DNA of 64,000 nucleotides from Whalleya microplaca (Eukaryota > Ascomycota > Sordariomycetes > Xylariales > Xylariaceae): NCBI GenBank assembly GCA_022497155.1, contig MU385710.1, positions 310,001-374,000 on the forward strand. Reading direction: 5' to 3'. Below the pieces are notes generated by a model, which was not told the DNA's origin, searched no databases, and saw only the letters and a list, made by a program, of their open reading frames with translations. The position numbers were made by a program, and so were the translations under genes. This document shows positions 38,238 through 62,454 of the stretch, piece after piece. Within the stretch, counting starts at the first letter, position 1. Every line of letters starts with the position of its first letter.

Positions 38238-39629
38238 CTGCCATAGATGTTAGTGCGTCTTTGTGTATCGATGGTTAGACATAAGAACAAACATGTTGGA
38301 TATTTATAGACTTAGTCGGATGGACTTCGTGAAAGGATGATTTTGTATGTGGAGAGCTTTCTATAATGCGGGAGGATCAGCTGTATACTTCGTTGTGGAA
38401 TATACTTGTGAAATAGAAAGAAATTACCGAAAGCGTATCTCGACTAAGCACCTGTAAGAGGAAGGACAGAGGACCGTATTTATACGAAGGCTCTAGCTAT
38501 AATAGCCATATGATAAGAAGATAAATCTGCCTTGGAGCGTGGAATTATTTGGGCGTTCACGCTGTTTGCTCATATCCCAGCCATTATCATGGTTCAATCC
38601 GTTTGTCCCTTACTGCCGGGCAAATCTTTTGATGGGCGAGAACCAGCCGAGCCACAAATCGTTGGCCAGACTAAATTACATATTGAAACTGCATCGAGCT
38701 ATTAGAGGAACTTGTAGTGGTAACAAGTCGGTGCCTGATTCTGAGTCCGGCCGGAGTATCCAGCCAAAGTTGTTGGCCTATTACTCTGGCCTAACTGTAC
38801 CATGTTGTCTATCTCTCCTAGGCCCCGAACCGGGCCAGATGAATCCTCGAAAGGGCAACAGCTGCTTGAGCACGCGTCGTTGATGTTCTAGTAACTCACT
38901 GTGTAGACTAACGGGGCGTTCTAAGCCACACCCAGCGTCAAAATGAGCCTTCAGATCAGCCAGATCCTGCATAATACAGGCCGTTAGCAGCTCTATAACC
39001 GTAATACTTAGAACTGTATCATTAAGCATGCAAAAGGCTCTGGTGACAGCGTGTCAGTGCTTTGCCGCGAGGCTGGCGTGTTGGCCTACGGGCTACATGC
39101 TTAATTGAGTTTGCCCAGTGCATTAGTATGCCGCCGAGTCGCATTCACGGGCGATGCAGTTGCTATTAGGTGAAACCGCGGTCCATCAATCAAAACAGGG
39201 GACTTATACCTACCTTACTTAATGTCTAGTCAATGAGTTGGTTGGCGGTTACACAGCCGCTCTGTCACTTAGCTAGTCCAATCGTATATATGTATTAACT
39301 AGTTAATGAATAGTGCTTAATTGAGTTGATTGGCCAATATATGCGACCCGGCTTGTAGGCAATAGATCGTTTGATGCTACTAAGTAACAGGTGGGGATGG
39401 TATGTCGGTTTCAATACGCGCTGGTTGGCTGGCTTACGTGCTCTGTTACATACCTAGAGCCCATGCCGGCTCGACCCACCCCGTCTGGGCTCATTGGTAG
39501 GTACTCTGCCTTGCTCATCAGTCTCTTCATAATAACTTAAGTTCTGCCACTATTTTGCGTTATAGCCTTCCCCCTTCAACTTCATTGACTTCTCCTCTCA
39601 CATCCGAGAATCTCACTACCATTGCAATA
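38238..39629. other. intergenic
   Basis: Spacer between the orphan Cys-rich exon and the small kinase gene; only short unsupported frames. Confidence 0.45.
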
Positions 39630-40427
39630 ATGGCACCTAAAATTACTCATTTCAATAACCTGGACTTTGTTGCAGAGGCTTTCGACCCAAAGACCTCAGA
39701 CTTCCTATATACCACGTTCGCGGTCATTGAGAGAGACGATGGTGTCTACTTTGGCCAACTGAATATACCCAAGCTCAAGATCACATTTGAGGAGTACACA
39801 TCTGCACTTGTACGAATTCCCGATGCTGAAATCTACCCCCAGTTCCCCAAGAGTGGCGAGCTCACCCTAGCCCCAGAGGAGCTAGCCAGCAATCAATACG
39901 TGAAGCGGCCACGACTATTTCAATACGAGGAGTACAAGGCACAAGATTGCGTCGACGTTATTCCTGCTCTGATACTTGAAGAGGCGCACCACCTAGAGAC
40001 GGTTTCTAGACACCCACATCCCGGCATCGTCGGGTACCACGGATGCCGCGTGCGAAGGGGGTTCGTCACTGGGCTAGTCATCGACCGGCATGCCGGGGAC
40101 CTTAAGCAGTACGTCCGTGACAATTTGGGACCTCTTGATAAAGGGCCCTTCATGGAAGCCCTAGAATCGGCCATCAACCATCTGCATTCCCTTGGCCTCG
40201 CCCATAACGATGTTAACCCCTCCAATATCTTGGTCAATGCTGCTGGCATGCCGGTACTCGCTGACTTTGACTCCTGCCGCCCTGTAGGCCAAAAGTTGAC
40301 ATATAGTCGCGGGACACGGGGCTGGATTGATACAGACGAAAGCTATGACACGTCTGAGACTCGCCACGATACGTTTGCTCTTGAAAAAATTCGGGCGTGG
40401 CTGGACGAACAGAAGGCTGACTCGTAG
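39630..40427 (+). CDS. atypical small protein-kinase-fold protein
   Basis: Start at the ATG at 39630 (MAPKITHFNNLDF); 265 residues, no intron. The N-terminal part is a poorly conserved N-lobe. A helix resembling alpha-C holds EEAHHLETVSRHPHPGIVGYHG. The catalytic loop reads HNDVNPSNIL, so Asn replaces the usual Arg of HRD but the catalytic Asp and downstream Asn are kept. The metal-binding motif is LADFDS, with DFD instead of DFG. A short segment GTRGWID takes the activation-segment place. Similar small kinase-like proteins are common and unassigned in ascomycetes. It may be a weakly active kinase or a binding-only pseudokinase; a glycine-rich loop is not obvious. Confidence 0.75.
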   Translation: MAPKITHFNNLDFVAEAFDPKTSDFLYTTFAVIERDDGVYFGQLNIPKLKITFEEYTSALVRIPDAEIYPQFPKSGELTLAPEELASNQYVKRPRLFQYEEYKAQDCVDVIPALILEEAHHLETVSRHPHPGIVGYHGCRVRRGFVTGLVIDRHAGDLKQYVRDNLGPLDKGPFMEALESAINHLHSLGLAHNDVNPSNILVNAAGMPVLADFDSCRPVGQKLTYSRGTRGWIDTDESYDTSETRHDTFALEKIRAWLDEQKADS

Positions 40428-41535
40428 ACTGGCTGTACTTCTTGTGGCCTCTGCGGTGGGTTATTCTTATCATCAAACATTGATATGAACACTCTCCTTT
40501 TTGATTTGAACTATTAAATTTTGTTGTCCGAATCTTGGGCGAAGCTTTTCAGATGAATCTGATACATTTTCTTATAGGAGCTCATGCGGATTTGTTTAAA
40601 TTTATACAACTTTAGATACCAGTAATGAGCGGATAATAAAATACAATATCCTCATTTAGAAGATCCAATTGTGAATATAATTACCTATCTACAAGTTCTG
40701 ATGTAGGTATTGTAGCTAATGGCGTTTCTGGTGTATTCTGGTAGACTATGGAGGTCGATGAAACCTGCAAAGCCGCGCCGGAGGTTTCAATATCAGATGG
40801 CCTGACCATATACAATACAGAGTCTCGCATGCCTCATGCTGAATTGGGAATTATTTCCATCTCTATCATTTTCAGCTCCTATTGCGATGGGGCGTCATGT
40901 TATGGAGCCGAGCACAGCCCTATTCCCGCAAGGGCGCCTTTGTGGCTAGCCTTAATTAGCCAAAACTAGGGGAGCCATCAAGTTAAGCTAATCCAAGTAG
41001 TTATTAGATCGATGTGATTGGAATGCATTGATTTGACAAATTTCTTGATACGGCGTATAGACATTATAGCGGTCAGCTGAAGGCGTAAGCACGTAAAACG
41101 GTAGCTCGTCTGACAACTGCGGCTGACGACTAACCACTAAAAACACAGGAAAGAGGCGGTAGGTCTAAAGATCTTCAAATAATCGAACAGTTCAGTCAAG
41201 GTTTGTTTAAATGACGAATTGACTTGGTTAATTCCAATATATACCACAGAATTCGGCTGCAAGTCTCAGACCCGGGGAGGCTGCGACACTAATTGATAAA
41301 CCCATCAAAGCTTCATTTCCTGATTAGCCTGTGAGCTAATAGGTCAATCTATAAATCCTTCAAGGCGTTCTTCGTGGCATTGTTCGGGTCGTTCTTCAGG
41401 TCCTATTTTAGTACACGATAACCTCAGCTTTCATAGGCGGCTTATTGGCAACTATAAACATTAGCCTTCTTCTTAGAGCTCGGCGGGTGGAAGTATATAA
41501 ATGTTGATTTTGGGTTCGAAAATCATCGTCGCTCA
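40428..41535. other. intergenic
   Basis: 3' flank of the small kinase and promoter of the GH43 gene. Apart from the TATA box listed next, nothing is supported. Confidence 0.5.
41494..41500 (+). promoter_or_regulatory. TATA box of the GH43 gene
   Basis: TATATAA 42 nt before the first ATG. The short distance makes the in-frame ATG at 41563 a possible true start. Confidence 0.45.
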
Positions 41536-42737
41536 ATGTTCCTAGGTGTATTCCTGAACACAATGCCAATGTTTCGTGTCCCAAAATTGGGGGATATCTC
41601 CCTCATTCTGACCACTTTGTTCTCCTTATCGACAGCCATTCCGGCACTTCCCAGACAAACTCAGGATGATAATAAGTCATGCAAGAACATATTTTTTGGT
41701 CCCCTTGTGGAACGGTTTCCGGATCCCTGTTAGTCACATACAAGTTGAAGCTTTGATAGTAGACTGACTGAAGTTGTGTAGCTCTAATCTATACGGACAA
41801 AGTCTGGTATTCATTCGCGACAGGAACAAACGGCAAGCAAGGTACATGGATTGAGGGCGCATATTCCAAAGACTTCGAGACATGGACTTCTCTCGACGGC
41901 GAAAGGATCCCAGACTTACCTAAGGCAAATTGGACCAAACAGGAGGGAACTAACTCCGTGTGGGCCCCGGATGTAATGCAGAGAACAGACGGAGAGTTCC
42001 TCATGTACTTCGCTGCCTTGGACGGGTCTGCATCAGGTGGCCGGCACTGTGTCGGGATCGCGCGGTCCGACGACATCAGCAAGACTTTCTCCGCGGAGGG
42101 GCTCGACGCTTTTGTCTGCAATGCTACGCACGGCGGAACCATAGACCCGGCATTCTTTAGGGACCACGACGAGAAGGATGATAACATCGCGGCTTACGTC
42201 GTCTACAAAGCAGACGGCGGCCGCGTCGGAATACCGACGGAGTTGCTAATACAACAGGTGGACAAAGACGGCAAATTCGAGGGCATCAGGAAGGCCAAAA
42301 ACAGTGATGGCTCGACCAAGGATCCGGTTCTGCTTCTGCGAGCCGAGTCTAAAGACCATAACGTCGAAGCGCCATACATAATTCGTCGAGGGAAGACATA
42401 CTTCCTTTTCTTCAGCACGCACTTGTACAACGAAGCTGCATACGACATTCAATACGCAACCTCGGATAATGTCCTAGGCCCATACAAGAGGAAGTCGGTA
42501 GCTCTATTGACCAGCGACACGGCTCCGTACAAGGAAGACTGCAAACTAGATGGTGAGAAGACTTACTTCTTCGGACCCGGAGGCCCGAGTTTCCAGAGCA
42601 TCGGGGATAACAAGGTCGTGTTCCATAATTATCATTCACCGGCGAATGCAACTGGGAAAAGGGGGCTATGGACAGGCACCTTTGAGATCAAGCAGGATTC
42701 CGAGGACGGTCCCACTGTGGTTTGGACATCATCTTAA
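41536..42737 (+). CDS. secreted glycoside hydrolase family 43 protein
   Basis: Exons 41536..41728 and 41782..42737 encode 382 residues. The 53-nt intron (GTTAGT, GACTGAC branch, GTAG) splits the conserved DPSLIY motif and splicing restores it. An N-terminal signal/anchor (ISLILTTLFSLSTAIPALP) indicates secretion; in-frame ATGs at 41563 or 41569 would place it nearer the N-terminus. The three GH43 carboxylates are visible: Asp63 in FPDPSLIY (base), Asp128 in VWAPDV (modulator) and Glu260 in VEAPYI (acid), spread over a five-bladed beta-propeller-sized domain. Family members cleave alpha-L-arabinofuranosides or beta-xylosides of plant wall polysaccharides. No carbohydrate-binding module is present. 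The exact substrate is not predictable here. Confidence 0.9.
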
Positions 42738-43907
42738 TAGACTGTATAGCTTTTCTTCTTTCAACTAGTATGCATTTATGATTATCGAATCTCCACACGG
42801 CATACTATTGTTATGGGGCTAGTACGCCGTACCGGGTAATAAGTGGCATATAAGATGCTCTTTTTCTTTTCTATAATCACGCAGCTTTAGATACATAGTC
42901 ACTAGATAATTCGATTCCATTCCTTTTGATCAAGCACTATTATATGACATATTGAAGTTATATTTGCCCTATCGATACGTATTGGCTCCCCTCGCATTTT
43001 ATACACCATCACCCTTACCCACGATACTATCACGGTTTTGCTAGGCTTTTCTCATAAGGCCTTGTGAAATGACATTACACTATCCATCGGATGTGCATTG
43101 AAGATATTACGGGAAGTAATGCGTTTACGCTGCGGCACTAACAAGTAATTGTATTCCCAAGAAGAATGTTCTTAGAGTAAATTATTCGTATAATAAGTAG
43201 GCAAACATACACAGCCGCTGCAGCATCTCAGCTGTAACACGTCCCTGAGCCATAAGATTATCGTTGCATATTGCCTCCTTCGATGTTGTGAGACTCCAGA
43301 GCGGTCAATTGCGATCCAATCGGGACTGTTTTCGGCCATTCGGCCATTCGGCCTAGTTAGCTGCAAGGGGCGGTTATACGAGATATTAAACCCCTGAAGA
43401 GAATCTAGGATAGTATCGTGCGCGTTTCTATAGTACACATACCTAATTCACTTAACTAAAATACAAAGTGACACGAGGCTAGAGTTGTACTACATTACAT
43501 GCAAGGAATGAATCTGAATACTCTTCATACAGCTACAGGTTTTCTCTATTAACTACATATCATCCCAACACGATACCCGTGCCAACTAGTACTCAGTGAA
43601 GGCTTCGTAACGCTATATAAAGTATCGAATATACATATACAAGTTTTCATTGACATCTAACAGGCATACTACTTACTAGCTTTTACAGCTTTGCCTTAAT
43701 AGCCTGAATCTGGGAGACCTCGGGTAAGCAGATCCCATGACTATCTATTGCGGTAATCTATGATATATCTATGATGTATCTATGGGTCAGAATTTTATGT
43801 TGGTTGAAGATCTAAAACCGGTTTCTAAGAATGTGTTCTAGTTGGAGGTTGTTTTAGGTAGTTGGTGTAAAGCCTAAATCGACGTGACACATCGCTTAAG
43901 GTATGTC
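42738..43907. other. intergenic
   Basis: AT-rich spacer; only short unsupported frames. Confidence 0.5.
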
Positions 43908-46900
43908 TTAACTGCCACGAACAATCATGTCATCGCGATCCGGGCCTGTTCCAATCCATTTGACCTGTTCGGCATTAGTAAATGTCTACATTCAAGCACG
44001 GGTCGGGAAAGGGATGTCGGAGACTTCTTTCGACGATCTCCAGCGCAGAATGTTACATACCTGGACTCCAATGAAATTCTCAATAAACTAGTTTTATGTT
44101 AGTATTATTCACATTGCCAGGCTAGTGTCAGGTTTACATACCTCGACGTAGTCCCGAGCCTCTTTTGGCAGGTCATCCCAGTTCCGCGTCTTTGTTGTCG
44201 GCTTGAGCCAACCTGGCATTTCGTGGTAGATGACTTCGACGCGCTCTAACTGGCTAAGGCTCGCCGGAAACAGGGGCACCTTCTAAGGAAGAGGTGAGTG
44301 GGACTGACTAGGGAGGAGATATATTCATTCTGGGATGGCATTTCGTACCTGGCCTGTCTGATCCTTGTAGCCGACAGCAATTTCGATGGTCCTAATTTTT
44401 TTTAGAAGGGGGAATAACTTCGATATGTAGAAACTAAAGAGGTTGAAAGACATCACTTGGAATGGATGTCCTTGGCAGGAGGACTGGGCCTCGAGATAAA
44501 CGGAAGAGGTAACCATGAGCACGGAGTGCGCTTACGGGAACGAATCAAGGACGTCCAGCTAAATTAGAGTTAGCCAGTCAGGCTATGTATAGGAATTGAT
44601 GGCATTCGAACATACCTTTGTGAGGTTGAGTGCCGTGTAGTGATTGATAGCCTAGGTAGTATTAGTAGGGTTATGTAGGACAAAGTCATATAGAACCACC
44701 CATACCGTACTGTACTTCACAACGACAAGGTCTGGAGAGGGAGAGTTAGCACATTATGAAAAAGCCCAGGAGAGCATACAAAGGAAACACGAGTCTCAGA
44801 TGGAATAAAACATAGATTTCCAAATGAACTGCCAGTTCTCTAGGTAAGTCTGATGAACAGTGGCTCACTAACCAAGCCTATTCCGAGCGAGTTAGTTATA
44901 CGTCAACCTAATACGATTTAATTCATCAGCTTTTGCTGCAGAGTCACTCACCAGCCACATCGTCACTTTCTGCCAGTTGAGACTCCCTTTCCACTCAATT
45001 TAGCGCCTACTCGTGCTCAACCTAGTGATTACGTACCCATTCTCGGCCGATGTCCTGCAGCTTAGTGCCCACCCTATCAGTGCCATGTCAGTGTTTCAAA
45101 CATATAAATATCCCGTATCCGCAGGGCACAATAAATGACTTGTACCGAAGACGAAGAAAAGCTTCTGAGGAGAATTACTTACTCTCCAGTGTCTTCCGTT
45201 ACGAAGGGCCCCTAGCAAGGAATAAGTTAGCAGCGAATCCGGTTGTTGGCTTCCCAATGCTACAATGAGCCGGTGATGAGAGATACGATACTGACCTCTC
45301 CAACTCTCGTTGTGTACGCCTTCACCACCCTAAACATCGCGTCAGTCAATGCATGCCTGAGTAACGCACGAAATAAACGCGCTTGGTAAGAGGTTCCCCA
45401 ATGATTCATCGGGGTGACGTTACACGTATACAGAATACAAGAACTTAACTTACCCAATGATTTCGCGGATCTTTCTTGGGTTGATGGCTAGGCCCGGGAA
45501 AACGCCGCCAAGCCCGGTGTTCGAGGAGGTTACATAGGAATACTATCATATGAGCATCAGTATATCGTCAATGGAGTCTTGTAAGAGCTACTACAGCTTG
45601 GTTCTCTTTCTTAACACGCGGGATTGACAGGCTGTCTATCCGCGAAAGGATTTTGGCAAGGGAAACTGGAAGTGGGTCATTGAAATCAACGCACCGTTCC
45701 ATAGTCAATGTCCAACATAAGTGCATTAGCACCTTCAATGAGGATATCAGTGTTCCTGTCCTGTGCCTCCTTGAGGAGTGCAACACCATCCACACTATAC
45801 TTGGCAAGCTGAGTGCGGTAGCTTTTGAATCTTTCCAGCTCGTCTTCAAGATCCTATCGTACGTCAATATTACATCCCTAGGATTATCAAAGCAATCCGA
45901 ATTAGGTCATCTATCAGAAGACCTAAGCGATGAGGGAAATATAGACGACGAAAGCTTCACATACTGTGCATCTGTTAGTACCTATCATGACTACCATGAG
46001 TAGAGTTCCGAGGTTTATTCTAAAGCCAAAATCTCAGTCCTCTATGTATCAGAATTTGTTATGCTTACCATATTTCAGAAGATCACCTTAGCGTTTCAAG
46101 TATGACGAATGAAGCTGGCGTAGTTTCCTCTGGTATAGGTTAGTCCAGACTATCAAACACAAACTATACTACCTAATACTCTGTATAGCCATATATTGGA
46201 GCGGAAAGTATTGAAACGCTGAAGAAATCAATTAATTGACATACTGCTAAAAGGTTAGCCACTTGGTCAAGAAGCAGAGATTTGGTCTTAGGATCGGAGA
46301 GATCGAACTTACCCTCGAACAATTCGGCGTCGAAGACTTCTGCCAGTTTTATACCGCTCCGCTATTCAAACGAGAGTCAGTATTTATTTATTTTCAACGG
46401 GCCAGACTTCGAGAGACCAGTTCTGGAGTGATTGAAAATGGTAGATTGGGCTTTTTGACGGATTCGAATAGATGACGGTGAACTTCTTAATACGTACTGA
46501 GGCCTTGGTAGGGTAAGCTAATTCAAGTTAGTATTCAACTATATAACGGAAGCCTTACTTTCTGGTCATGAGCCTTGACGCCCCAGGGGGTGGGAGAGGA
46601 AACGTACAGAGCCCTATTCCACGGCCAGTAGTGCCAAGCTTCCGAGACCCAAGCTCGACCTTTTCTAACCCATCGACCGCAATATGTAAGTCTACATATG
46701 TATTAATATTCTATACCATAGTTCGCAACGGTGACTTCTACGGTGGCCTCTTTCGTGAAGGAAGCACTATGGTGTGTTGGAAAAGAAGACAAATGATAAA
46801 TATGTGTAGATATGAGGAATAAAGCTGAATCCAGCAGATGTCCTGAACATGCATCTGGACCACGAAGGGAGACGCTTCAACATACCAAGGTCAATGCTGA

Positions 46901-48146
46901 CCCGGTCGCTCACGAAAACACGGTCCTACTGTGAATATCAGTATCTTGTATTGACACTTGTGGACTTACATCTAGAGGATCCATCCTGATTCCATACAGG
47001 CCTTATGCCTAGCTATTTAGAAGTGGAAGGGTACAGAAATGAATCACATACTGTGGTGGGTTAGTCTAAACAATGCAGCAGGACGAAGAGTGGTTGAACT
47101 GACCATGTACGTTTTCAAGGCCTTTTTCTTCGAGCTGCGCAAGCTCAAAGAAGAACGTTGCCACGTGGAAGACGACCCCAGAGCTATTATGTAAGTACAA
47201 CTTTTGCAAAGCAGGGACAAAGGTCCTACAATTATACAATATTGTCATACGTACTACTGAGAGGTCAGTCGCTACACCAAATCAAACGGTGAAAGACCAT
47301 GGAAGAAATAAAACTATGATGTCTTAGAACAACAGGATTTTGGTACATACCCCAATTAGGTTCAAACATTGAGGGTTCATTAAGCCACTGGGAAGGAGGT
47401 GGAAGCTATGTTTGGTTAGGCCTGTCGAGGCAGATACATAGATGCGGCACATGCCTGTAGGATACGCCATTGGCTCTATGTACAGCAATCAGTAAGTTTG
47501 ACTACTTCGCCCGTTGGTGGGAAGAAGCTTCGTCAACCCACACAATGGAATGGCCTGCATTATGGCCACCCTATATACAGTTTCAGCAACGACTGGCCCA
47601 TGGCTCATATAGAGAAGGTTAGACGCACAGCAGCACGAGCACAAAACTTGGCATTACTTGCCAGAACATCAACTCGTTTTCCCTTCTATAATGTCAAGAT
47701 CAGCATGAATGGACAATTACACTATTGGGTATGAGAAGAGAGGGATCCTGTGTATACGAGACTGAGGGAGAAAGTGTCGACTTCGGAGTTTACATGGGGG
47801 TTCGGGGAAGAGAAGGCCAGGGGGTAAAACATACGCCCTCATCGCCTTTAAAGAGTAGAGTTAGTCACAGCCTCTATACATGGTCAACGGTGCATGCAAC
47901 AGCGAACAAGACATGTACGTGGGCATTCCGCAAGAAATAGAAAGGAGTGTACTGTACCCCATGAGGCCCCGAGACTGGGACACCAGAGTTAGTATTTTCT
48001 CTTTCTGAAAGTTTAGCGAATTATCAGGAGGTCTAAGTCTAAGACATAAGTATCTCAGGAGCTTTTGACTCCCTAATATGCCCCAAGTACCTAGGACAGA
48101 AAGGGTGATAAATGACTCTAGATGGTACTCACACAATAGTCGCCAT
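43908..48146 (-). pseudogene. adenylosuccinate synthetase homologue with 29 exons, apparently decayed
   Basis: Family reaction: IMP + Asp + GTP to adenylosuccinate (AMP synthesis). Exons on the minus strand: 48146-48133, 47974-47958, 47845-47835, 47685-47629, 47570-47542, 47475-47455, 47405-47351, 47183-47104, 47001-46970, 46925-46886, 46691-46608, 46517-46498, 46361-46245, 46129-46069, 45971-45961, 45853-45695, 45542-45454, 45329-45296, 45211-45183, 45073-45037, 44986-44952, 44877-44873, 44731-44706, 44651-44616, 44558-44536, 44391-44349, 44282-44142, 44087-44061, 43964-43908. Nearly all introns are GT-AG, many with CTAAC; the intron after exon 6 is GC-AG. The conceptual product has all signatures: [91 protein letters not shown]. 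It is about 462 codons, some 20 more than usual, mainly from an insert at 46245-46310. Lesions: TAA at 46090-46088, TGA at 44965-44963, and one G too many at the exon 7 end (47353-47350). Confidence 0.82.
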
Positions 48147-49914
48147 GTCAAGTGCCAAGAATGTTCCTCAATTGACTAAGTGTAATGATTCACTGACAGC
48201 CTAAACAAGCTGTCAAGGGAGCAGCTTTTAAGTCTGTAAATATCAACAAAATAGAAGGACCCCGCGATCCAATTGACCTCATAGGCCCTCCGACGGTTTA
48301 CTTCGGCGTTCGTTATTCCGTGACCCACTCTGTGCGAGAATGCCAGTTGATCATTGGCCTATCATCCTCTGAAAAGCTTAGACCCTCTAACCCAAGGGAT
48401 GGCATCATGGTGGGCTGTCCCCCTGTCACTGTTACTGTCACGATGTTGTGGAAAACTTTATCCCACATGTGAGGGCGGGCGCCATGCAGGTAAACCTTAC
48501 ATAACTCCATCCTATACCTAGAGATGAGTGCAAGATTAATTAGTTCCACAGGTCTCTACAATAATGCACTGTATTGTCTTATGTTCATAACAGATTATAG
48601 TCAGATGACACGAATATTCGCACGATTCTAGAGTACAGACAGAAACTTTTGACGGGCACAAGCCCGACTATCTATAAGTCGGTCTTATCATACACACATA
48701 ATTGTCTATAGATACACTCGTTAAGTTGTTCACTTGTTAGACTAATTCATCTTATTATGACTTAAAATAGGTGATGACAAGTAAAATTGAGCCACCATTC
48801 CACAGGCTAAGCCACCAGCGGGGTATTCATGAAAACCGAGACTGACCCAATAACTTAACTACTAGATAAGTTTCATGACAAAGTTATTCCTAGTAAATTC
48901 AAGTCATATATGTATATAAGAGGAAAACCGTGTTAACTCGCCTATTCGCTGTATTTGATCTATACTGTACGATCACCGACTATTGGTTCTAATAGTGTCA
49001 TGACGTGAAAAAGCAATGGACCGAAGTGTCCTATAATAGTGGAATGATCAGTATCTCAGTGAGATGTTTAAGCAGATCGGTCCGTTCGGTTTCTTTTTCT
49101 ACCGCCTGCTGGACTAAGAGGGTTTGTTGAATGCTACATGAGTTACATGAGGTGGATTTATTGACTTGCCCAACGTTCGACGACTCGTGACTTTCCAGCG
49201 CGCCGGTACGTTACATGCATTTGGTGGCGCAGCCTCCCTAAATTTAGATCCCGCGTAACCTATAAAAGTAGATAGTTCCGTATTTAAGCGAAAGAAGCAT
49301 ACAGTGGTCGCATATGCCGTATAACAGACAACGAGATATCGATCGTATCTATCGTATTTCATCTTACATATCTGCCCATTCCTCAATGCCAAGCTTTTGC
49401 GGCTGGCCTTAAAGGTCCTGTCGTGTGAGGCTGGGTCTTGACAATCTACCCCAGTCAGCCCAGCCACTTTCTACAGTTTATCGGCAACTATTCCGATCTG
49501 GGCATACCGCTATTATCGTCGTCCCTCTTTTTCTGATATCCCACCGCTGTGAGTCGCCAAGGTAACGACTCTGCACCACCCCGCTGTGGGATACGAGATC
49601 TTGGCGGCCCAACGCAGTCCAAGATCGGCTTTTCACAACGTCATTTTCCTCCGGCGTCCCTTGCTGCGGTGGTTGTTTGACTACCTCACCGTCACCGGTC
49701 CAACACGAGATCTTCCTTCCACGATGAGGCCTCTGTGATTTCTACATATAAGTATAAACGGTTGCCTGCTTGCTTTGAAGACTCCATTAGCCATCAAGCC
49801 ACAATATTATATTAAAGCCAACCCTACTAATCACACGTTAATCAACTACAATCAAGAGACCCCTCATCGCACATCATCAATATTTGCCACCTCAAACTAC
49901 AACTCATCACCACA
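48147..49914. other. intergenic
   Basis: Between the divergent synthetase homologue and the Alt a 1-like gene. A 117-residue minus-strand frame (49114-49467) has no recognisable domain. AT-rich around 48.5-49 kb. Confidence 0.45.
49747..49758 (+). promoter_or_regulatory. TATA box of the Alt a 1-like gene
   Basis: A double TATAAG/TATAAA element about 160 nt before the start codon, followed by a leader of A/C-rich sequence. Confidence 0.4.
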
Positions 49915-50549
49915 ATGTTCGGCCTCGTCTCAACCCTCACTGCCATCCTGCCTTTGGCAATGGCAGCACCGCTCCAGCTCGCCACCCGCGACGCCAACCC
50001 CGGATGCTTCGATGCCTCGTTCGGCAACTTCTCCTGGTCGGTGGAGAACTTTGACTACCATGCATCCTACATCTTCACGACGCCCGCCCATCAGAACTCG
50101 TGGGGCTACGTGAACTTCAACCTGACGAACCCAGCTCTCGAATACCAGGCCGTGTGCAGTGCCTCCAGCAACCAGCTCTCCGACTTCTTCTACGGCACTA
50201 TGGCATATAACTGCACGGAGCCGGACGGCACGTCAGCCGAGACCAAATTCGATTTCAGCCGGCCCAGTGGTGTCTTGAATGTCAACCAGACCTGGGACTG
50301 CAGTGACAAGGACCCCCAGTACCCGTAAGTCTCCCATGATTCATCAAAGTGTTAATGCAAATTCTAACATTCGTCGATAGCGTAACGGTCTGGGCTTATG
50401 GCACCGCCAACTTGACTCTGGACTGCACTGATGAGACGTGGACCAACCCCAACTGGACGACTCCCGGCACTATCTACTCCAGCCGCACGGTGCAGTGCAA
50501 GCCGGTGACTTTGCCTCTCAAGCCTTACGAGATGAGATCTGTTGCTTAA
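49915..50549 (+). CDS. Alt a 1-like (AA1-like) small secreted protein
   Basis: Exons 49915..50324 and 50381..50549 encode 192 residues; the 56-nt intron has GTAAGT, CTAAC and GATAG and joins in phase (cc+c). Signal peptide MFGLVSTLTAILPLAMAAP, then one beta-rich domain. Features: FSWSVENFDYHASYIF, several NxT/S glycosylation sites, paired Cys (VCSAS...YNCTEPDG; WDCSDKD; LDCTDET; VQCKP), ending in LKPYEMRSVA. The pattern matches the fungal AA1-like/Alt a 1-like secreted family, whose best known member is an Alternaria allergen that binds phenolic ligands and may act in host interaction. Assignment is from motif memory, so the family is likely rather than certain. The strong codon bias and compact promoter suggest high expression. 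Confidence 0.82.
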
Positions 50550-51171
50550 ATTGACGTTGAATGAACATGGGTGGATGTTTATGAAGCATAACGAATTAGA
50601 ATTGGATATACTGGGCATGATCATGATATTTATGACTATATTAGACATATAGTGACTACGAGGTCACGGAGATAAAAGTAATTATAATAATGAGAAAAAC
50701 TATCTTGATATCATCTTATTAGTGATAATCACATTGTACGGAGTAGCCTCATGCGCTATATAGGATCCTACTATGTCGTGGCTATTACCTTTCGGTACCT
50801 TCGAGTAGTTGCTGAAAACAGTGTATCTGTTGTTGGGCTAAAAATATGAATAGCTTTGTCCTTTGAGACGTTATGTGTGGCTTTGTCTCGAGGTACTCTT
50901 TTACTGGTTGTAAGTTTACAAGGTGATGTGCCACAGTGAAAATGAAAGAAATAACAACTTATACAACAAGCGTCTTTCAAGTAGGCTATCCAAGCACCTT
51001 ACAAGGCTAAGCTACAGCACTCTAGCTACTCCCCCGATACGTCCTGGTAAGGCACTTTGGGCAGGCAAACTACTCATCCGAATTCACCCCTACTCAGGTT
51101 TTTTCTATTGGGAAATAGAACACATAGCTAGAAGATCTAGATCTAAGCAGCTCACGGCTGCCAGAGCCGAA
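50550..51171. other. intergenic, upstream of kinase 1
   Basis: The kinase frame stays open upstream to 50923 but the sequence there lacks protein character, so the start at 51172 was preferred. Confidence 0.45.
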
Positions 51172-53343
51172 ATGCCCGATCTCGGCCAGGAACTTGAGGA
51201 GGTGATTATTATAAGTAAGCCCAGTGTCACAGAAGCTGGACTTTTTGACATTCAAAGCCCCAACGAAGATACTAGAGGGCATCTGGAGCCGCCAAAACCT
51301 ACCCTGTCTGAAGACGAAATCAAGCCTAAAGCAGCTGAACCCAGTTCAGAGGAGGTAGATGCACAAGATGACGAAATAATCAGTATTAACAAAGCGCAAA
51401 CAACAACGAAAATAAGTCAAGAGAATGCCGAACTCGAAAAACTGTTTCAATGCCCCAACTACGCTACTCCAGGCATAGAGAACATTGAGAGTCTCCGCGA
51501 TTATGTCCCTGGTGGTCACCATCCAGTTCATTTTGGCGATATACTTGATGACCGCTTCGAGGTTGTTCACAAGGTGGGGTGCGGCGGATTCGCTATCGTG
51601 TGGCTCTGCTTCGATCTGAAAAGCGAACAGTGGCGAGCGGTGAAAATTATCAAGGCGGACCAGTCGCATGAGGAAAGGCCGGAACTGAAACTCGCAGCTC
51701 AATTGAAAGAAGATAAGAGTTTCGAACCAAGTGAATGGGAAGCTTACCACATTGCCCTTCCTTTAGAACATTTTTGGCTTGAGGGTCCTAATGGCCGACA
51801 CCTTTGCGAAGTCCTTCCTCTTCTTGGGCCATCTATAAAGTCAAGGTGGGACAGCAGATTGGACGACCAGCGACTTTTTGAGATCAAAGAACTTCTCTAC
51901 CAAGCTACCGAAGCACTGCAGTTCCTCCACAGGAGAGGAATTTGCCATGGTGACTTTAGAAGTGAGAATATGTTGCTAAGGCTGGAGGACCTGTCAAAGG
52001 TCGGGAAGGAGGAAATGATTGATCTACTCGGTGAGCCTGTTTGTGAGATGGTCAGGGTATATAACGGCCCTGAACCTGGTAGTATGGCCCCAAAATACGT
52101 AATAGAACCGGTGGATCTGACAGCTTTCGCGAAGAATGAGGTTGCTATTATTGACTTCGGTGAGTCCTTTACAGTTGGGAACCCACCCGATTTTCTTGGA
52201 ATTCCCTGCATGTATGCAGCACCAGAAGTCCGTCTTGGAGGCCACCAGCCAGGCCTGAGCATCGATGTATGGTCGTTAGCATGCACCATTTTAGACGTTC
52301 GAGGGAACTACACGATCATGGGCGCTACTTTCCCCAGCTACGTAATGCTCTTAGAGGTTCTGCTTGGCCCACTTCCTGAGCCATATAGAGCCAGCTACTT
52401 GAAGCAGCTAGATGATGCCCAGCTGCAGGGAAAGCAGATACCCATCGTGTCCGACTTGGCGAAGGAAGGGAATGGTAACAACAAGCCATTAGTACCAGTC
52501 ACTAATATTGAGACGTTTAAGCGCCTCAGTGACCGGAAAGATGAAATTGGTCGAAAGACCGGATATACAGATCGGTTCTGTCAAACACTAGCACAGACCA
52601 GTCAGTACTCAGGCCCGCCGCTAGATGACGGCGGTAATGAAATCCGGGATTCAGAATGGGTAGAAATCCAATTCAAGATACCGGATGAAGAAGTTATTAT
52701 TCTGGGAGATCTTCTCCGTAAGGTTATCAAATACGAGCCCGAAAATCGGATTAATATTGATACTATCTTACAACATGAATGGTTCAAAGAAACAAATGGT
52801 TGGACGGGGGAGGTAACTCGATCTTCCAGTCCATTCATATCCGAGCCAGGTGATATTTTGGAACAAAAAGAGACCGACGTTGAAGATGGTGAGGATGCTA
52901 GATCCCATCTTGAAGGGGAACAAGATAGGATTGGCAAACAGGGGAATGGAGAGAAAAGTGCAGAGGGCCTCGATACTCCCCTGATTCCCGATTTTGTTAT
53001 AGATACTCTAAATGGCACGCTAACGCAAGAGCATAAGCCTTTGAATGCTAAGTTCTCGCGGTTGAGCCTCCCAGCTTGTCTGGATGCATCGCACCAATGG
53101 ACAAAACTCCGCCAGTCACGAGCCCTTCATAATCTCCAAAATACCATCTTCTCTCGAAAATTTGTCGTTTACATCACAATCGGATCAGTTCTCGCCACCG
53201 CTCTATTGGCTATACTCGTCCAGATTCTTCTTTCCAGGAGGCAGGTTCAGATGGCTTTAACTCGGAGGCCTTGTCAGCATGAAGTGTTTATTACCCCGAC
53301 TATGGTTCGATCGTCGATATCAACCTACTTTGAGGGTCAGTAG
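51172..53343 (+). CDS. SRPK-like protein kinase with C-terminal TM segment, paralogue 1
   Basis: 723 residues, intronless. The acidic N-terminal region (1-110) is followed by YVPGGHHPVHFGD, the signature preceding SRPK-type kinase domains. Kinase elements: glycine loop KVGCGGFAIVW (about 134-144), Lys158 in RAVKII, catalytic loop CHGDFRSENML (HGD instead of HRD, Asp261), IIDFGESF (DFG at 328-330) and YAAPE (about 348-352). A long insert precedes the C-lobe segment IPDEEVIILGDLLRKV. After the domain comes an acidic linker, then one hydrophobic helix (about 664-687, VVYITIGSVLATALLAILVQ) and a 36-residue tail ending TYFEGQ. The start at 51172 (MPDLGQELEE) was chosen over the longer frame. SRPKs normally phosphorylate SR proteins and are soluble, so a membrane-anchored version implies a different role. 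Paralogous to the genes at 55.7 and 60.4 kb. Confidence 0.85.
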   Translation: MPDLGQELEEVIIISKPSVTEAGLFDIQSPNEDTRGHLEPPKPTLSEDEIKPKAAEPSSEEVDAQDDEIISINKAQTTTKISQENAELEKLFQCPNYATPGIENIESLRDYVPGGHHPVHFGDILDDRFEVVHKVGCGGFAIVWLCFDLKSEQWRAVKIIKADQSHEERPELKLAAQLKEDKSFEPSEWEAYHIALPLEHFWLEGPNGRHLCEVLPLLGPSIKSRWDSRLDDQRLFEIKELLYQATEALQFLHRRGICHGDFRSENMLLRLEDLSKVGKEEMIDLLGEPVCEMVRVYNGPEPGSMAPKYVIEPVDLTAFAKNEVAIIDFGESFTVGNPPDFLGIPCMYAAPEVRLGGHQPGLSIDVWSLACTILDVRGNYTIMGATFPSYVMLLEVLLGPLPEPYRASYLKQLDDAQLQGKQIPIVSDLAKEGNGNNKPLVPVTNIETFKRLSDRKDEIGRKTGYTDRFCQTLAQTSQYSGPPLDDGGNEIRDSEWVEIQFKIPDEEVIILGDLLRKVIKYEPENRINIDTILQHEWFKETNGWTGEVTRSSSPFISEPGDILEQKETDVEDGEDARSHLEGEQDRIGKQGNGEKSAEGLDTPLIPDFVIDTLNGTLTQEHKPLNAKFSRLSLPACLDASHQWTKLRQSRALHNLQNTIFSRKFVVYITIGSVLATALLAILVQILLSRRQVQMALTRRPCQHEVFITPTMVRSSISTYFEGQ

Positions 53344-55651: not shown

Positions 55652-57526
55652 TCATGTTGACGCGGGAGGCCGAGCTGTAGCCGGAATGAGTAGAACGTCT
55701 TGATGACACGGCTTAAAAGGATCCGGACTGTGGACTACCACCACCGGTCTGCGATAGAACGAAATTGTGAGAAATATGGCCCAAAAAACGAAAGCAATGG
55801 TAAAACCGAGGGACAAAGGGAGAAGTAGACGCTGGGGGAGGGTGGCCTGCCATTTGCGGAATATCTGGGAGGGCCGGGCCTTTTCCCAGTAATGCCGTAT
55901 GTCCAACCTGTTCGGTAGCCGAAATATAGATATTCTTTTGTGCTCTTCTTGGCGTTTTGATGCTGCATCTATATTGCAATGCTCAGTTGACTCGGGAGCC
56001 GTCTTTATCACATTTAGCTCCTCGGGGATAGCCAGGCTGGATTTCAGGTCTTCCTGACATTGCTGTTCAGCATTAGAGTCTTGAGATATAGCGATTTCAG
56101 GACAGCTTGATTCTTTTAGCGATGCTTCTGGTTGTCTAAACCATGGGTGTTCTAGAACGGCGTCGATGTCAATCCGATCCTTGGGATCGTATTTGAGAAC
56201 ACTTTCAAGTAGGCCACCAAGCATACGAACTTCTGCATCTGGTACTTTGAAATGGACCAAAGTCATAGACCTCGAACGATCTCTAGTGCCATCCGAATTT
56301 CTCGGGTAGTCGTGATACTGTTGTTCTCCGGCAAGCTCTATTCGGATAACCCCTTCATGTCCAAGCAATTTTGAATCCTCCTCGTAGCTCTGCATTACCG
56401 ACTCATACTCATCCCGCGGACTGACTGGCCCTAACGTGTCGTTTGGCTCATTTCCTTCTGCAAAACCTTCAAATGGATCCTCTCCGTGTTCCTCCTGATA
56501 CTTCTTCCGCCGGGTGGCGAGAACAGAACGGTACGGCTCTGGAAGTGGACCAAGTAGCTGCTCCAAACTACATATATATTCCTGCTCACTGTCTCCAAGT
56601 ATTGCCTTTCCCACCCGAATCTCCATTATAGAACAAGCTAGTGACCATACATCACTGCTGAAACCCGGCTTAAGTCTGAAACGGGCCTCAGGAGCCGCAT
56701 ATTTGTTGGGGATACCCACAAAGTCCGGAGGGCTCTCAACATGGAATGATCCCCCAAAGTCAATAATTGCAACTTCATCGGCTAAACCCAAACATGAGAT
56801 GTTTTCCACCTGGCAGACTGCGTACTTGGGATAATTTGGACCGGGAAGTTTCCCTGATATAGTTCGTAATTCTTCAACTTCTGGTTGTCCCAGCAATTCC
56901 AACATCTTTTCTTTACTTATATGGCTATTATCCTTTACCCGAAGTAGAATATTGTTGGGTCTGAAGTCCCCATGACATAGCCCGTGATGGTGAAGATATT
57001 GAAGCCCTCTTGCAGTTTGTAAAAGTAGCTTCCTCACGCGTGAGGGTTCTCCTCTTGTTGCAGCATCCAGTCTTGGCCCAAGTAATGGCATTACAAGACA
57101 AAGATGTCGACCGTTTGGTCCTGACACCCAGAAATGCTCAGATGGCAGGACAATATGACTGGCTTCCCAATCATATGGCTTCTGGTCAGAGTTTCTAAGA
57201 ATATTTAGAAATTTCAAATCTGGGCAATCCTCATCAGAGTCATCGGCAGCAAGAATCTTGATTGCTTTCCAGTCATGATTTAGATTATCAAAACAAAGCC
57301 AAACAATCGCAAAGCCACCTTGACCAAGTTTGTGGATAACCTCAAATCGATTGTTCAGGATGTCTCCAAGGTGGACTGGATGATGCCCACCTTCCGTATA
57401 ATCCGAAATGTCCTCGATAAGTTCGCCGGTTCCTCTATTCACTACGATATCCTCTGTGATTTCCGCAGGTTCACCTAAGTCTTCCATCGGATGTGAAATG
57501 GGCGGTGTCGTAATTGAACTTGACAT
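55652..57526 (-). CDS. SRPK-like protein kinase with C-terminal TM segment, paralogue 2
   Basis: 624 residues from the ATG at 57526 (MSSSITTPPISHPMEDL), intronless. It has the shortest N-terminal region of the three. Kinase signs: YTEGGHHPVHLGD, glycine loop KLGQGGFAIVW, AIKILAADD, CHGDFRPNNIL, IIDFGGSF and YAAPEA, then LLGPLPEPYR and VPDAEVRMLGGLL near the C-lobe end. A hydrophobic segment (LLLPLSLGFTIAFVFWAIFL) lies about 45 residues from the C-terminus. The tail has KPCHQDVLLIPA, matching RPCQHEVFITP and SPCYQEAFIIP of the other two, but lacks their final TYFEGQ. Substrates unknown; DFG and the catalytic Asp are kept, so activity is likely. Confidence 0.85.
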   Translation of the reverse strand: MSSSITTPPISHPMEDLGEPAEITEDIVVNRGTGELIEDISDYTEGGHHPVHLGDILNNRFEVIHKLGQGGFAIVWLCFDNLNHDWKAIKILAADDSDEDCPDLKFLNILRNSDQKPYDWEASHIVLPSEHFWVSGPNGRHLCLVMPLLGPRLDAATRGEPSRVRKLLLQTARGLQYLHHHGLCHGDFRPNNILLRVKDNSHISKEKMLELLGQPEVEELRTISGKLPGPNYPKYAVCQVENISCLGLADEVAIIDFGGSFHVESPPDFVGIPNKYAAPEARFRLKPGFSSDVWSLACSIMEIRVGKAILGDSEQEYICSLEQLLGPLPEPYRSVLATRRKKYQEEHGEDPFEGFAEGNEPNDTLGPVSPRDEYESVMQSYEEDSKLLGHEGVIRIELAGEQQYHDYPRNSDGTRDRSRSMTLVHFKVPDAEVRMLGGLLESVLKYDPKDRIDIDAVLEHPWFRQPEASLKESSCPEIAISQDSNAEQQCQEDLKSSLAIPEELNVIKTAPESTEHCNIDAASKRQEEHKRISIFRLPNRLDIRHYWEKARPSQIFRKWQATLPQRLLLPLSLGFTIAFVFWAIFLTISFYRRPVVVVHSPDPFKPCHQDVLLIPATARPPAST

Positions 57527-59001
57527 TGCCACCTTGCCTTTCCAGCTGCCTCCCCAACCAAATTTGATTGCTTATTGAAGATCCTAGGATGCAGGTGATG
57601 TTAGGAAAGGTGAGTTGCCAATGATATGCAACAAGTATGTATGAATGCGAACCAGGACCATTATCTTACCAGTTTTGGAAGCTGTAGGATTAATATAACA
57701 AAGACAATATATAGTAGCTCATAGTGATAGGTCAGTTCAAATATGCCATATATAACAGCACATCAAAGCAAGCTAAGACATTTCAACATGGCTGTTTTTG
57801 GCTTAGTTTGCAAGCCACAAAGATAATAAAAGTGACCGTCTTGACATTAGAACAATAACTGCCATAGGTAGTTTGATGACACGTACAAGGCTATGGTCGG
57901 AATTATAGACAATAGAGCTAGATAAGGACAAGCATGCAAGGGCACTGGGTAGGCAAAGGTGATATTGAGACGACCTGAACTGGAATTCTTCCATATACTC
58001 CCTATAAAAGTCAAAGCACATCAAGCTCAATAATTTACATCGTAGTTATTCCAAGAATCTGCTTTTGAGTATTTCTATTAGGCATTAATATGACGCTTAT
58101 TTGCTGATAGTGGTGGAATCGAGGTATTGATAGTAGCATTGAGAAGATACGGGCGTTATATGTTTAATTAGACATTATATGATTGGTCCTAACTGACGGA
58201 TTACAGGGATGTGGCTGTGATCATTCAGGTGGCTGGGCGCCCCATAAGCTGTGGCTTATATATAGGAGGCTCTGCCTCCTCTGACTCTAGTGATGATACT
58301 TCTCTAATAACTACTACTATACTACTCATAACCTGCGTCTATTTCATCACTAATTAAGAATATTAACAATCCCTATGCTAGGGTCTATGTCATTGGTCTT
58401 AGCTTGGTAGCAATATACTCTAGTAAATCAGACTTTTAACCTGATATAAGTACCTTGTGGTCTGGCTCCGCAGGGTTAGTGATATATCCCCAACACATTA
58501 TTGTATCACATATATACCATGTCAACCTTAGAGGCTCCATTTGATATTAGTTTTATCCATGCAAGATTTAATTATCATAGATACACCCTGCTATAGTTAT
58601 TACATGTATCTTCTGTAAGGAAACGAATGATGGAACCTCGCCTTTCTTTGGCATACCCCATAAAGAGAGATCGCTACCTCTTGAATGGTTTTTATATCAA
58701 AGCTGATAACGAATGCGGTCTATACTTCTTTCAGAGTCTATATAAAGATGCCATTTCAAGAGAACCAAAGGCTAACATCCTTCATACCTTTCTGTCTCTA
58801 TGCAAATATAAGGTTTGAGTAAGGCAGCTATACAAAGACTCATAGCATTATTATCCTGAGCCTTTGTATGTATAAAGAAGTAAATAGGGACGAAACGATG
58901 ATATATAGTCCAACTATTGCACCTGGTGTCAATATTTAGATGCTGGGTATTGAAATAAACTCCACCATTCTTGAATAATCTATAGAAGTATCTTAAGGGA
59001 C
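57527..59001. other. intergenic, AT-rich
   Basis: No supported gene. A perfect 7-bp inverted repeat with a 3-nt loop (AGGAGGC TCT GCCTCCT) lies at 58264-58280. A 63-residue frame at 58627-58818 has no context. Confidence 0.45.
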
Positions 59002-60351: not shown

Positions 60352-62454
60352 CTACTGACCCTCAAAGTACGTTGTTGTCAACGATCGAACCGTAGTCGGG
60401 ATAATGAATGCCTCCTGGTAGCAAGGACTTCGAGTCATAACCATCAGTGACTGTCTTCTAGATAGAAGAATATAAATGACTATAATCCACAAAGCGGTGG
60501 CGAGCATAAATCCGATTATGAAGTAAATAACAAAGTTTTTTGATTGGATGGTATTTCGAACTTTATAAAATGCTTGTGAGCGGTGGAATTTTTCCCAATG
60601 TTGTAATAGATTCAGGCAGGCTGGTAGATACAAGGACTTGGCCTCTAAAGATTCTGCTTCTTTCTGATATGCTGTAGGCTGAGAGATTTCGATAGATGTG
60701 GTTTGGTTTTCAACCTCGAATCTACTGCCTTGCTCTATCTCATCACTAATATGTTTGCTAAGCAGAGTTAATCTGTTTCTATCGAACCATTCATGCTTTA
60801 AGACTTCTTCGATATCAATCCGTTCCTCAGGATCATATTTTATGATTCTCCGTAATAGGTCCCCCAGAACCTTGACCTCTTCGTCGGGGACTTTCAAAAT
60901 AGTCTCCTTCCATTCTCCGTAGTCGAGATCCATTTCATTATGATTGAGTAGAGGGAGATGATACTTTCTGTCCATTCCGATCTCTATGTCAATGCGGTTC
61001 GTGTATCCAAATTTCTCCGCTTTATACTCGACGAACTTTATCAATCGATCGTATGCTTCCGGTCTGGTTACCGGTCTTAAGGGTTCATCTGAGCCCTCGG
61101 ATTGGCCATCTGGGAAATATAGTCCCCATTCGAACGATACTTCGGTGGGGCCCCACATCAACCAGTTCAAATCATTTTCACCCAGCTTTGATTGCTTTTC
61201 AGCAGTATAGTCCCTCCAATCCCTTCCAGCGTCTTCCAGATCTTCCTTAAGTCGACCATAGTACGCACTTCGGTATGGCTCAGGCAGTGGTCCCAGCATT
61301 ACTTCTATGCACAGTGCATAACTGGGATGATTGTAACTAAATAACTCTGCATTGGCCCGAACCTTGAGAATAGAGCAAGCAAGGGACCAAATATCGGCTG
61401 GCATCCCAGGGTCGCAACCAAAAACAGCCTCTGGTGCACCATACTTACAAGGGATTCCTGAAAAGCTTGGAGACTTAGATGCTCTGAACGACTCTCCAAA
61501 GTCTGTGATGACGAGGTCATTTGTGATTCCCAAACATTTCATGTCTACAGGAACGACCTTATATTTGGGTACCATTGGGCCCGGGTGAACACGAGAGACA
61601 GTTGATACAGACTCAAGTTTCGGGTCTCCGAGGATATTTTTCATATCTTCTTTCATGATATGGGAAATATCTTTCAACCGTATTAACATGTTGTGAGGAG
61701 TTAAATCGCCGTGGCAAATTTCCTGTTTGTGAAGAAACCTTAACGCTGTGGCGGCTTGAAAAAAGAGGTCATTGAGCCTAGAAATGCCCTCCTCGGTATC
61801 TTGAGTTCTCCATTTATAATCAATCGAAGGTCCAAGAACAGGAAGAACCTCACAAAGATGCCTACCATTTGGCCCATCGATCCAGAAATGCTCCAGCGGC
61901 AATGTGATATGATTGGCCTCCCATTCGCTGCGATCGAAGCCTCCCTGCTTTTCGAGATACTTCAACAACTGGAGCTCCGCTCTCTCCTCGTACGATTCGT
62001 CTGCCCGGTTGATCTTTACAGCCCGCCATTCTTTGTCCTTGATTTCATAACATAACCAAATTGTGGCAAAGCCACCAAATCCAAGCTTGTGTATGACTTC
62101 GAAGCGGCCGGCTATAATATCCCCTAGGTGGACAGGATGAAAACCGCCAGGATGATAACTGTAAATGTCTTCCGTATCCTCGCTGGGTAAGCCAATATAT
62201 TGCGGGATATCGACTATTCTTGGGATTTGATCATCATTCTGGACAGTGGCTACTTCGTTCACATATTCATTGCAATCGAATGTTGTGTGTGTAAGATCTG
62301 GTGAATTTGCTGCTTCATCAATGGCAAAGTCCGGAGTACTAGTTCTGAGCAGTATAGAACTATTTACGAATGCTTTATTCGAAAGTTCGTTACTTTTAGT
62401 AGAGACGGCATCCTGGGGAGCATCTGATCTGCCAGAGCTGGACGACAATGCCAT
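60352..62454 (-). CDS. SRPK-like protein kinase with C-terminal TM segment, paralogue 3
   Basis: 700 residues from ATG 62454, intronless. A Ser/Thr-rich N-terminal region of about 100 residues is followed by YHPGGFHPVHLGD, glycine loop KLGFGGFATIW, RAVKINRADE, catalytic loop CHGDLTPHNML, ITDFGESF, YGAPEA, LLGPLPEPYR-type segment (MLGPLPEPYR) and KVPDEEVKVLGDLL. A single hydrophobic helix (FVIYFIIGFMLATALWIIVIYILL) is followed by a tail nearly the same as in kinase 1, with SPCYQEAFIIPTTVRS and final TYFEGQ. Kinases 1 and 3 are therefore closest in the tail. The conserved short tail on the far side of the membrane hints at a shared partner or sorting signal. Activity is likely since the Lys, the catalytic Asp and DFG are intact. 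Confidence 0.85.
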   Translation of the reverse strand: MALSSSSGRSDAPQDAVSTKSNELSNKAFVNSSILLRTSTPDFAIDEAANSPDLTHTTFDCNEYVNEVATVQNDDQIPRIVDIPQYIGLPSEDTEDIYSYHPGGFHPVHLGDIIAGRFEVIHKLGFGGFATIWLCYEIKDKEWRAVKINRADESYEERAELQLLKYLEKQGGFDRSEWEANHITLPLEHFWIDGPNGRHLCEVLPVLGPSIDYKWRTQDTEEGISRLNDLFFQAATALRFLHKQEICHGDLTPHNMLIRLKDISHIMKEDMKNILGDPKLESVSTVSRVHPGPMVPKYKVVPVDMKCLGITNDLVITDFGESFRASKSPSFSGIPCKYGAPEAVFGCDPGMPADIWSLACSILKVRANAELFSYNHPSYALCIEVMLGPLPEPYRSAYYGRLKEDLEDAGRDWRDYTAEKQSKLGENDLNWLMWGPTEVSFEWGLYFPDGQSEGSDEPLRPVTRPEAYDRLIKFVEYKAEKFGYTNRIDIEIGMDRKYHLPLLNHNEMDLDYGEWKETILKVPDEEVKVLGDLLRRIIKYDPEERIDIEEVLKHEWFDRNRLTLLSKHISDEIEQGSRFEVENQTTSIEISQPTAYQKEAESLEAKSLYLPACLNLLQHWEKFHRSQAFYKVRNTIQSKNFVIYFIIGFMLATALWIIVIYILLSRRQSLMVMTRSPCYQEAFIIPTTVRSLTTTYFEGQ

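Follow-up and report, generated by a model that had tools for sequence, protein, structure and literature searches.

Single fungal genes that are far denser in introns than the genomes around them have been described before, as for an alpha-amylase gene that passed from bacteria to Basidiomycetes and holds 8–22 introns per gene (mean 13.3) in genomes averaging 3.8–5.7 (PMC3584928). Introner-like elements, which form families of similar introns across many genes, have been proposed to underlie intron gain in ascomycetes (PMC4457414, PMC9860276), and [D1,2] stwintrons – nested introns in which an internal U2 intron lies between nucleotides 1 and 2 of the donor of an external one – have been described in Hypoxylaceae and Xylariaceae (PMC12403724, PMC9024468, PMC8469720). 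Here we examine an adenylosuccinate synthetase (AdSS) paralogue of Whalleya microplaca (Xylariaceae), full length, collinear with its family and cut by many short introns, which lies on the minus strand at positions 43908–48146 of a 64,000-nt stretch of contig MU385710.1 (the window; C1:310001-374000). AdSS converts IMP, aspartate and GTP to adenylosuccinate.

The locus is like the alpha-amylase case, as far as the passages of PMC3584928 describe it, in that a single gene is far denser than its genome, its introns are scattered and their sequence origin is untraceable. It is unlike that case in having 26 intron positions and 30 introns, an ascomycete host, a fungal paralogue and four nested introns. 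We read it, with a probability of about 0.78, as an old second AdSS lineage that is intron-dense, holds four [D1,2] stwintrons and is now probably a young pseudogene. We would class it as a new and extreme form of gene-specific intron accumulation, one that includes [D1,2] stwintrons.

An adenylosuccinate synthetase gene in 27 predicted exons

The genome comprises 48.1 Mb on 114 contigs, among them C1 (1,962,795 bases) and C18 (761,926 bases). Searched in all six frames with PF00709, the genome yielded six matches (7 candidates scored), divided between one locus on C18 and one in the window; at the window locus the family was found above its cut-off in two separate pieces (E = 9.2e-10 and 1.1e-9). 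Splice-aware dynamic-programming alignment of an AdSS profile to positions 43501–48700, with an intron penalty of 10, scored 980 on the minus strand but 59 on the plus strand. None of ten controls, taken from both strands of five stretches elsewhere in the window, exceeded 70. These controls and higher intron penalties were adopted after a lenient spliced alignment of the C18 gene had produced a score of 181 on its wrong strand. Among the matches listed from a tblastn with bacterial PurA, run permissively on the window, most were chance pieces, and this search was discarded.

The final gene model, obtained by spliced alignment followed by manual refinement, has 27 exons of 5–159 nt (mean 47 nt) with a coding sequence of 1275 nt, separated by 26 intervening sequences (IVS) of 49–216 nt; if each of the four stwintrons described below is counted as two, the predicted total is 30 U2 introns. 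The order of the exons can be read directly from the DNA (Table 1), with a GC content of 51% in the exons and 43% in the intervening sequences. Splice sites are recognisable throughout, and most introns have consensus donors and branch sites. The spliced product is full length and collinear with the family; it carries the GDEGKGK P-loop and the GGHNAGH motif. Aligned with an annotated protein of Xylariaceae sp. FL0662B, it has the identical residue at 389 of the 421 positions compared (92% identity), with one internal gap of one residue, and because that protein comes from a different genome it provides an independent check on the choice of exons.

An earlier, sequence-only reading of this stretch had proposed a collinear, full-length AdSS homologue with many short introns. 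That observation is largely real, as the family matches, the spliced score and the FL0662B protein agree, and the conserved blocks – which might have proved out of order with respect to the family – are collinear in the spliced AdSS-profile alignment. The multitude of introns stands as well; the figures given for it (29 exons, 28 introns of 44–194 nt and 1389 nt of coding sequence) are replaced by those above.

The GenBank protein of the locus (P0002, Whalleya microplaca) threads exactly onto the window in 24 exons, with 23 introns of which 16 coincide with those of our model, the comparison being one of threaded protein sequence rather than of GenBank's own coordinates. This protein lacks exons 2 and 3, replaces exon 23, splices all four stwintron regions differently and avoids both of the in-frame stops discussed below.

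Four putative nested introns

Treated as plain introns, IVS 7, 8, 12 and 13 allow no clean splicing: the aligner either needs three 2-nt 'exons' (47255-47256, 46970-46971 and 46245-46246) or drops two to three conserved residues, and the GenBank protein, which is spliced at other sites there, has residues missing or added. These tiny exons were abandoned in favour of stwintrons, and the four are best read as [D1,2] stwintrons, that is, nested twin introns (A to D in Table 1). The layout that suggests this is there in the DNA. Each of the four has one extra G before its apparent donor, and in all of them the terminal AG of the internal intron directly abuts TACGT or TATGT, so that with the internal intron gone the extra G would complete a consensus donor. 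An internal GT–AG intron between G1 and T2 of the external donor, together with acceptors and branch-like sites, was found in four of four, and this reading restores both the frame and residues that are present in the relatives.

With site weights devised for this analysis and 1000 shuffles per IVS, the combined scores of internal acceptor and external donor were 6.3, 8.2, 8.2 and 8.2 for A, B, C and D (p = 0.002, 0.001, 0.001 and 0.001, respectively); the other 12 IVS of at least 90 nt reached 2.6 at most. The weaker elements are the branch site of the external acceptor of A (score 0.5) and the internal donor of B (GTCAGT). A single surplus G had been left over in the sequence-only reading; four such nucleotides exist rather than one, and they are explained as the first nucleotides of the external stwintron donors. 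In each stwintron the internal intron would leave first, G plus TACGT or TATGT would become the external donor, and a second reaction would follow – an order suggested by the sequence and by published stwintrons. The predicted transcript would require 30 splicing reactions.

In host order and in the placement of the internal intron, these four are like the stwintrons described in the passages of PMC12403724. Published sister stwintrons are similar in sequence and propagate, whereas the four described here are mutually unrelated. No likeness or symmetry was found between their internal and external introns (p = 0.13–1.0), and complementary near-terminal repeats of 10 nt are not clear in any of the four, the best case being 8 of 10 in stwintron A. 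The genome DNA search and the intron comparisons revealed no similar copies, no symmetry and no clear near-terminal repeats, the traits of propagating sister stwintrons. According to PMC12403724, more than one stwintron occurs in a small number of genes; four in one 30-intron gene are not described in the passages of that paper, its supplementary table lying outside this comparison. Nor did an intron-dense AdSS figure among the listed titles and beginnings of abstracts in the literature searched, a scope that excludes most subscription papers.

Intron density in the gene and its genome

At the locus, a strict intron-motif scan counted as many as 11 introns per 3 kb without overlap, compared with a maximum of 5 per 3 kb in the rest of the 64-kb window (231 overlapping scan windows, both strands) and with a mean of 1.55 and a maximum of 6 in a genome sample (600 overlapping scan windows, both strands). 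That sample consisted of 20 stretches of 10 kb on C2–C11, or 200 kb, which is 0.4% of the 48.1 Mb, and other genes of this density could exist. Intron positions number about 20 per kb of coding sequence in the window AdSS. For orientation, Pezizomycotina genes average 3–4 introns (PMC9024468) and vertebrate genes 6–7 introns per kb of coding sequence (PMC3174169).

The second AdSS gene of the genome (C18:696695-698225) is intact, identical to GenBank P0121 and interrupted by 4 introns. Two intron positions, after window residues 33 and 406 and both in phase 0, are shared by the two paralogues, and the remaining 24 of the 26 window positions are missing from the C18 gene. The density is therefore specific to the gene, as the sequence-only reading had held and as far as the sampling goes: it lies far above both the sampled genome and the C18 paralogue. 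The C18 protein is of the same type as those of Hypoxylon sp. EC38 and Daldinia.

The source of the introns

The 26 IVS show no mutual similarity, the best score in an all-vs-all alignment being 24, compared with best scores of 21–31 in 30 shuffled sets. A second copy of the gene's DNA was not found in the 48-Mb genome by a search that skips simple repeats and very common words, and positions 40000–52000 contain no repeats of at least 25 nt. At all 26 exon–intron borders, direct repeats resembling target-site duplications measure at most 3 nt on either side, though the traces of old duplications may have worn away. Tandem duplication of flanking exon sequence, as an alternative source, reaches p ≤ 0.02 at 2 of 26 introns and is a weak signal at most. 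The introner-like activity put forward in the sequence-only reading finds no footing in these results.

Relatives and possibly shared intron positions

In a protein tree, the window AdSS groups with the proteins of FL0662B, Nemania abortiva, Cryphonectria and two Neonectria (support 98/94), and Microthyrium joins them less firmly (92/83). The clade is small and scattered, and mixes Xylariales, Diaporthales, Hypocreales and one dothideomycete. A profile built from these six proteins of the relatives recovered all six among its top seven matches, with four new rows (P0152–P0155) ranked far below, both statements applying to the best 120 of 7,996 matches. Because a topology uniting the window copy, FL0662B and C18 is rejected by the approximately unbiased (AU) test (p = 1.5e-6), and because no second genomic copy of the DNA was found, we read the gene as an old paralogue rather than a recent local duplicate.

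The annotated proteins of the relatives show skips and insertions that resemble splicing errors, and 9 of 13 such breakpoints lie at most one residue from a window intron, against an expectation of 15.6%. This count covers seven rows labelled as kin, of which two, from Sodiomyces, fall outside the clade and one, from Nemania abortiva, has no breakpoint. The protein of Neonectria ditissima lacks exon 6, with breakpoints within a third of a residue, and that of Cryphonectria contains inserted residues at intron 15. The multiple alignment places departures of the Sodiomyces alkalinus protein at introns 19 and 21, although in pairwise alignment its insertion lies 1.67 residues from the nearest intron. 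Going by these breakpoints in annotated proteins, many of the introns probably predate Whalleya, since several of their positions appear to be shared across fungal orders; certain positions may even be widespread among fungal AdSS genes. We infer both the age of the introns and their ancestral gain: most would have been gained singly in an ancestor of this small ascomycete clade of patchy distribution, at a time so remote that recognisable copies no longer remain. Descent from an intron-rich lineage, the other origin suggested in the sequence-only reading, may or may not apply: the scattered clade and the breakpoints make old shared introns likely, but no intron-rich donor lineage was identified.

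AdSS trees of Sordariomycetes also conflict with taxonomy. Nemania abortiva pairs with Cryphonectria and Nemania diffusa with Metarhizium (each 100/100), and the AdSS proteins of Trichoderma evansii and Coniella group with the Daldinia, Hypoxylon and C18 type. Repeated transfer, replacement, hidden paralogy and mislabelled records are all possible reasons for the discordance.

In-frame stops and the state of the gene

Two stop codons are present in the DNA within the frame of the enzyme, a TAA at codon 172 and a TGA at codon 302, and interrupt what would otherwise be an intact reading frame, of the kind found in relatives with intact AdSS proteins. Of the changes that could be polarised, 16 fall on the Whalleya branch and 10 on that of FL0662B; 157 columns show at least 95% conservation across 149 other proteins, and the window copy deviates at 7 of them and FL0662B at 3. 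Because of the two stops and the additional changes at conserved columns, the window copy in Whalleya microplaca is probably a young pseudogene. Its frame would have been lost recently through two nonsense mutations, with splice sites still recognisable, and the intact C18 paralogue presumably carries the enzyme function. Neither the stops nor the nested introns nor a pseudogene had figured in the sequence-only reading.

The survival of the splice sites neither supports nor excludes a pseudogene. With 18 changes over about 956 nonsynonymous sites and 120 essential splice nucleotides, a rough hand estimate that treats the whole branch as neutral gives an expectation of about 2 splice hits and a chance of about 0.1 of seeing none.

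Weighing the explanations

Several points weigh against our reading of the locus as an old, intron-dense and recently inactivated paralogue. Every splice junction is a prediction from genomic sequence, and as the aligner forces GT or GC donors and AG acceptors, intact splice dinucleotides are partly built in. Weak sites occur at the donors of IVS 2 and 24 and at the branch sites of IVS 18 and 23, and the donor of IVS 6 (47454-47406) is GC (GCATGT) rather than GT, an intron that is nevertheless obtained in identical form by threading the GenBank protein. In that protein, plain introns with other sites replace the four stwintrons; the frame is kept, but conserved residues are lost. Assembly errors, or changes peculiar to this strain, could account for the stops. 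The case for shared introns is an indirect one, drawn from breakpoints in the annotated proteins of relatives. Breakpoints within one protein are not independent, those near the C-terminus of the Cryphonectria protein lie 9 and 15 residues from window introns, the first one in Neonectria punicea is 4 residues off, and proteins outside the kin group also break at window intron positions above expectation (12 of 33; 150 proteins compared).

That the exons are chance pieces chained together within a decayed gene, with no real intron-dense gene behind them, can practically be dismissed: a lenient spliced aligner does chain such pieces, as the score of 181 on the wrong strand of the C18 gene attests, but the score of 980 stands against at most 70 in the ten controls, consensus donors and branch sites recur at most introns, and the agreement with a protein annotated in another genome already refutes the idea. 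A recent burst in Whalleya, in which one mobile family of introner-like elements inserted repeatedly into the gene, would account for the extreme density and would be in keeping with the proliferation of stwintrons in related Xylariales (PMC12403724). We nonetheless hold such a burst to be very improbable, because the IVS are no more alike than shuffled sequences, no copies exist elsewhere in the genome within the limits of the search and the border repeats are short; the internal and external introns are also unlike, and near-terminal complementarity does not exceed the 8 of 10 positions given above.

Unlikely, though a good deal less so, is that the gene still functions in Whalleya, its stops being sequence errors, peculiar to the strain or bypassed by editing or exon skipping. 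The recognisable splice sites and the 92% identity to FL0662B speak for this, as does exon 13, where the first stop lies: it measures 60 nt, both its borders are in phase 0, and leaving it out would preserve the frame. Exon 19, however, which holds the second, measures 35 nt and is not a multiple of three; two separate stops accompany the Whalleya-branch changes at highly conserved columns; and the GenBank protein evades the stops only through alternative splice sites that drop conserved residues. That the gene came by horizontal transfer from another fungal lineage, rich in introns from the outset, deserves more credit than any of these and is still a minority view: the mixture of orders in the clade and the pairing of Nemania abortiva with Cryphonectria at 100/100 speak for it, but the nearest relatives found are all Pezizomycotina, and hidden paralogy with losses would produce the same tree. 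Such an acquisition is compatible with our reading of an old, intron-dense lineage as a route by which the gene arrived, not as an origin of its introns.

What the locus may teach

The locus bears on an open question, namely how one gene can gain dozens of introns without its genome doing likewise. The system it offers is compact, with a paralogue of few introns in the same genome, a near orthologue from a second species and four unrelated nested introns, and its host belongs to an order where stwintrons are known to move. It also provides an example of mis-annotation, as the GenBank protein leaves the conserved enzyme at the four stwintrons, at micro-exons 2 and 3 and at exon 23. As a long shot, somewhat less credible to us than a gene still functioning in Whalleya, a rare AdSS lineage might have been kept for long, and have moved between fungal orders, while extremely dense in introns, several of them nested, with the splicing load itself under selection. 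If this were true, the load could hold exons below the length at which repeat-induced point mutation, the homology-based silencing of duplicates, acts on them, or it could instead tie the product to a particular splicing state.

Feature coordinates

Table 1. Predicted exons and putative stwintrons of the window AdSS gene, in transcript order (window positions).
Feature	Position	Strand	Remarks
Whole locus	43908..48146	-	27 exons, 26 IVS, coding sequence 1275 nt; probable pseudogene
Exon 1	48133..48146	-	14 nt, start codon
Exon 2	47958..47974	-	17 nt
Exon 3	47835..47845	-	11 nt, part of the GDEGKGK P-loop
Exon 4	47629..47685	-	position of next intron (after residue 33, phase 0) common with C18 paralogue
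Exon 5	47542..47570	-	
Exon 6	47455..47475	-	21 nt; residues missing from annotated Neonectria ditissima protein
Exon 7	47352..47405	-	
Putative stwintron A [D1,2] (IVS 7)	47184..47351	-	external G 47351; internal 47350-47254 (97 nt); external rest 47253-47184
Exon 8	47105..47183	-	
Putative stwintron B [D1,2] (IVS 8)	46926..47104	-	external G 47104; internal 47103-47051 (53 nt); external rest 47050-46926
Exon 9	46886..46925	-	
Exon 10	46608..46691	-	
Exon 11	46498..46517	-	20 nt
Exon 12	46314..46361	-	
Putative stwintron C [D1,2] (IVS 12)	46130..46313	-	external G 46313; internal 46312-46244 (69 nt); external rest 46243-46130
Exon 13	46070..46129	-	in-frame TAA 46090-46088 (codon 172)
Putative stwintron D [D1,2] (IVS 13)	45854..46069	-	external G 46069; internal 46068-45964 (105 nt); external rest 45963-45854
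Exon 14	45695..45853	-	
Exon 15	45454..45542	-	
Exon 16	45296..45329	-	
Exon 17	45183..45211	-	
Exon 18	45037..45073	-	
Exon 19	44952..44986	-	in-frame TGA 44965-44963 (codon 302)
Exon 20	44873..44877	-	5-nt micro-exon within conserved WLD stretch
Exon 21	44706..44731	-	
Exon 22	44616..44651	-	
Exon 23	44536..44558	-	
Exon 24	44349..44391	-	
Exon 25	44142..44282	-	
Exon 26	44061..44087	-	position of next intron (after residue 406, phase 0) common with C18 paralogue
Exon 27	43908..43964	-	normal stop codon

Neighbouring genes

A biosynthetic gene cluster in Hypoxylon pulicicidum is reported to include an AdSS homologue (PMC12616698). A role for the window AdSS as the self-resistance gene of such a cluster was considered and rejected, as no core biosynthetic domain was found in the 10 open reading frames (ORFs) scanned out of 17 of at least 200 codons in the window, a scan that covers unspliced frames. 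Four long ORFs that match protein kinases lie around the AdSS gene, within about 25 kb of each other, at 39501-40427 (+), 50914-53343 (+), 55652-57571 (-) and 60352-62520 (-). The window further contains an ORF of glycosyl hydrolase family 43 at 41772-42737 (+) and one for a C2H2 zinc-finger/Fungal_trans transcription factor at 18567-21977 (+).

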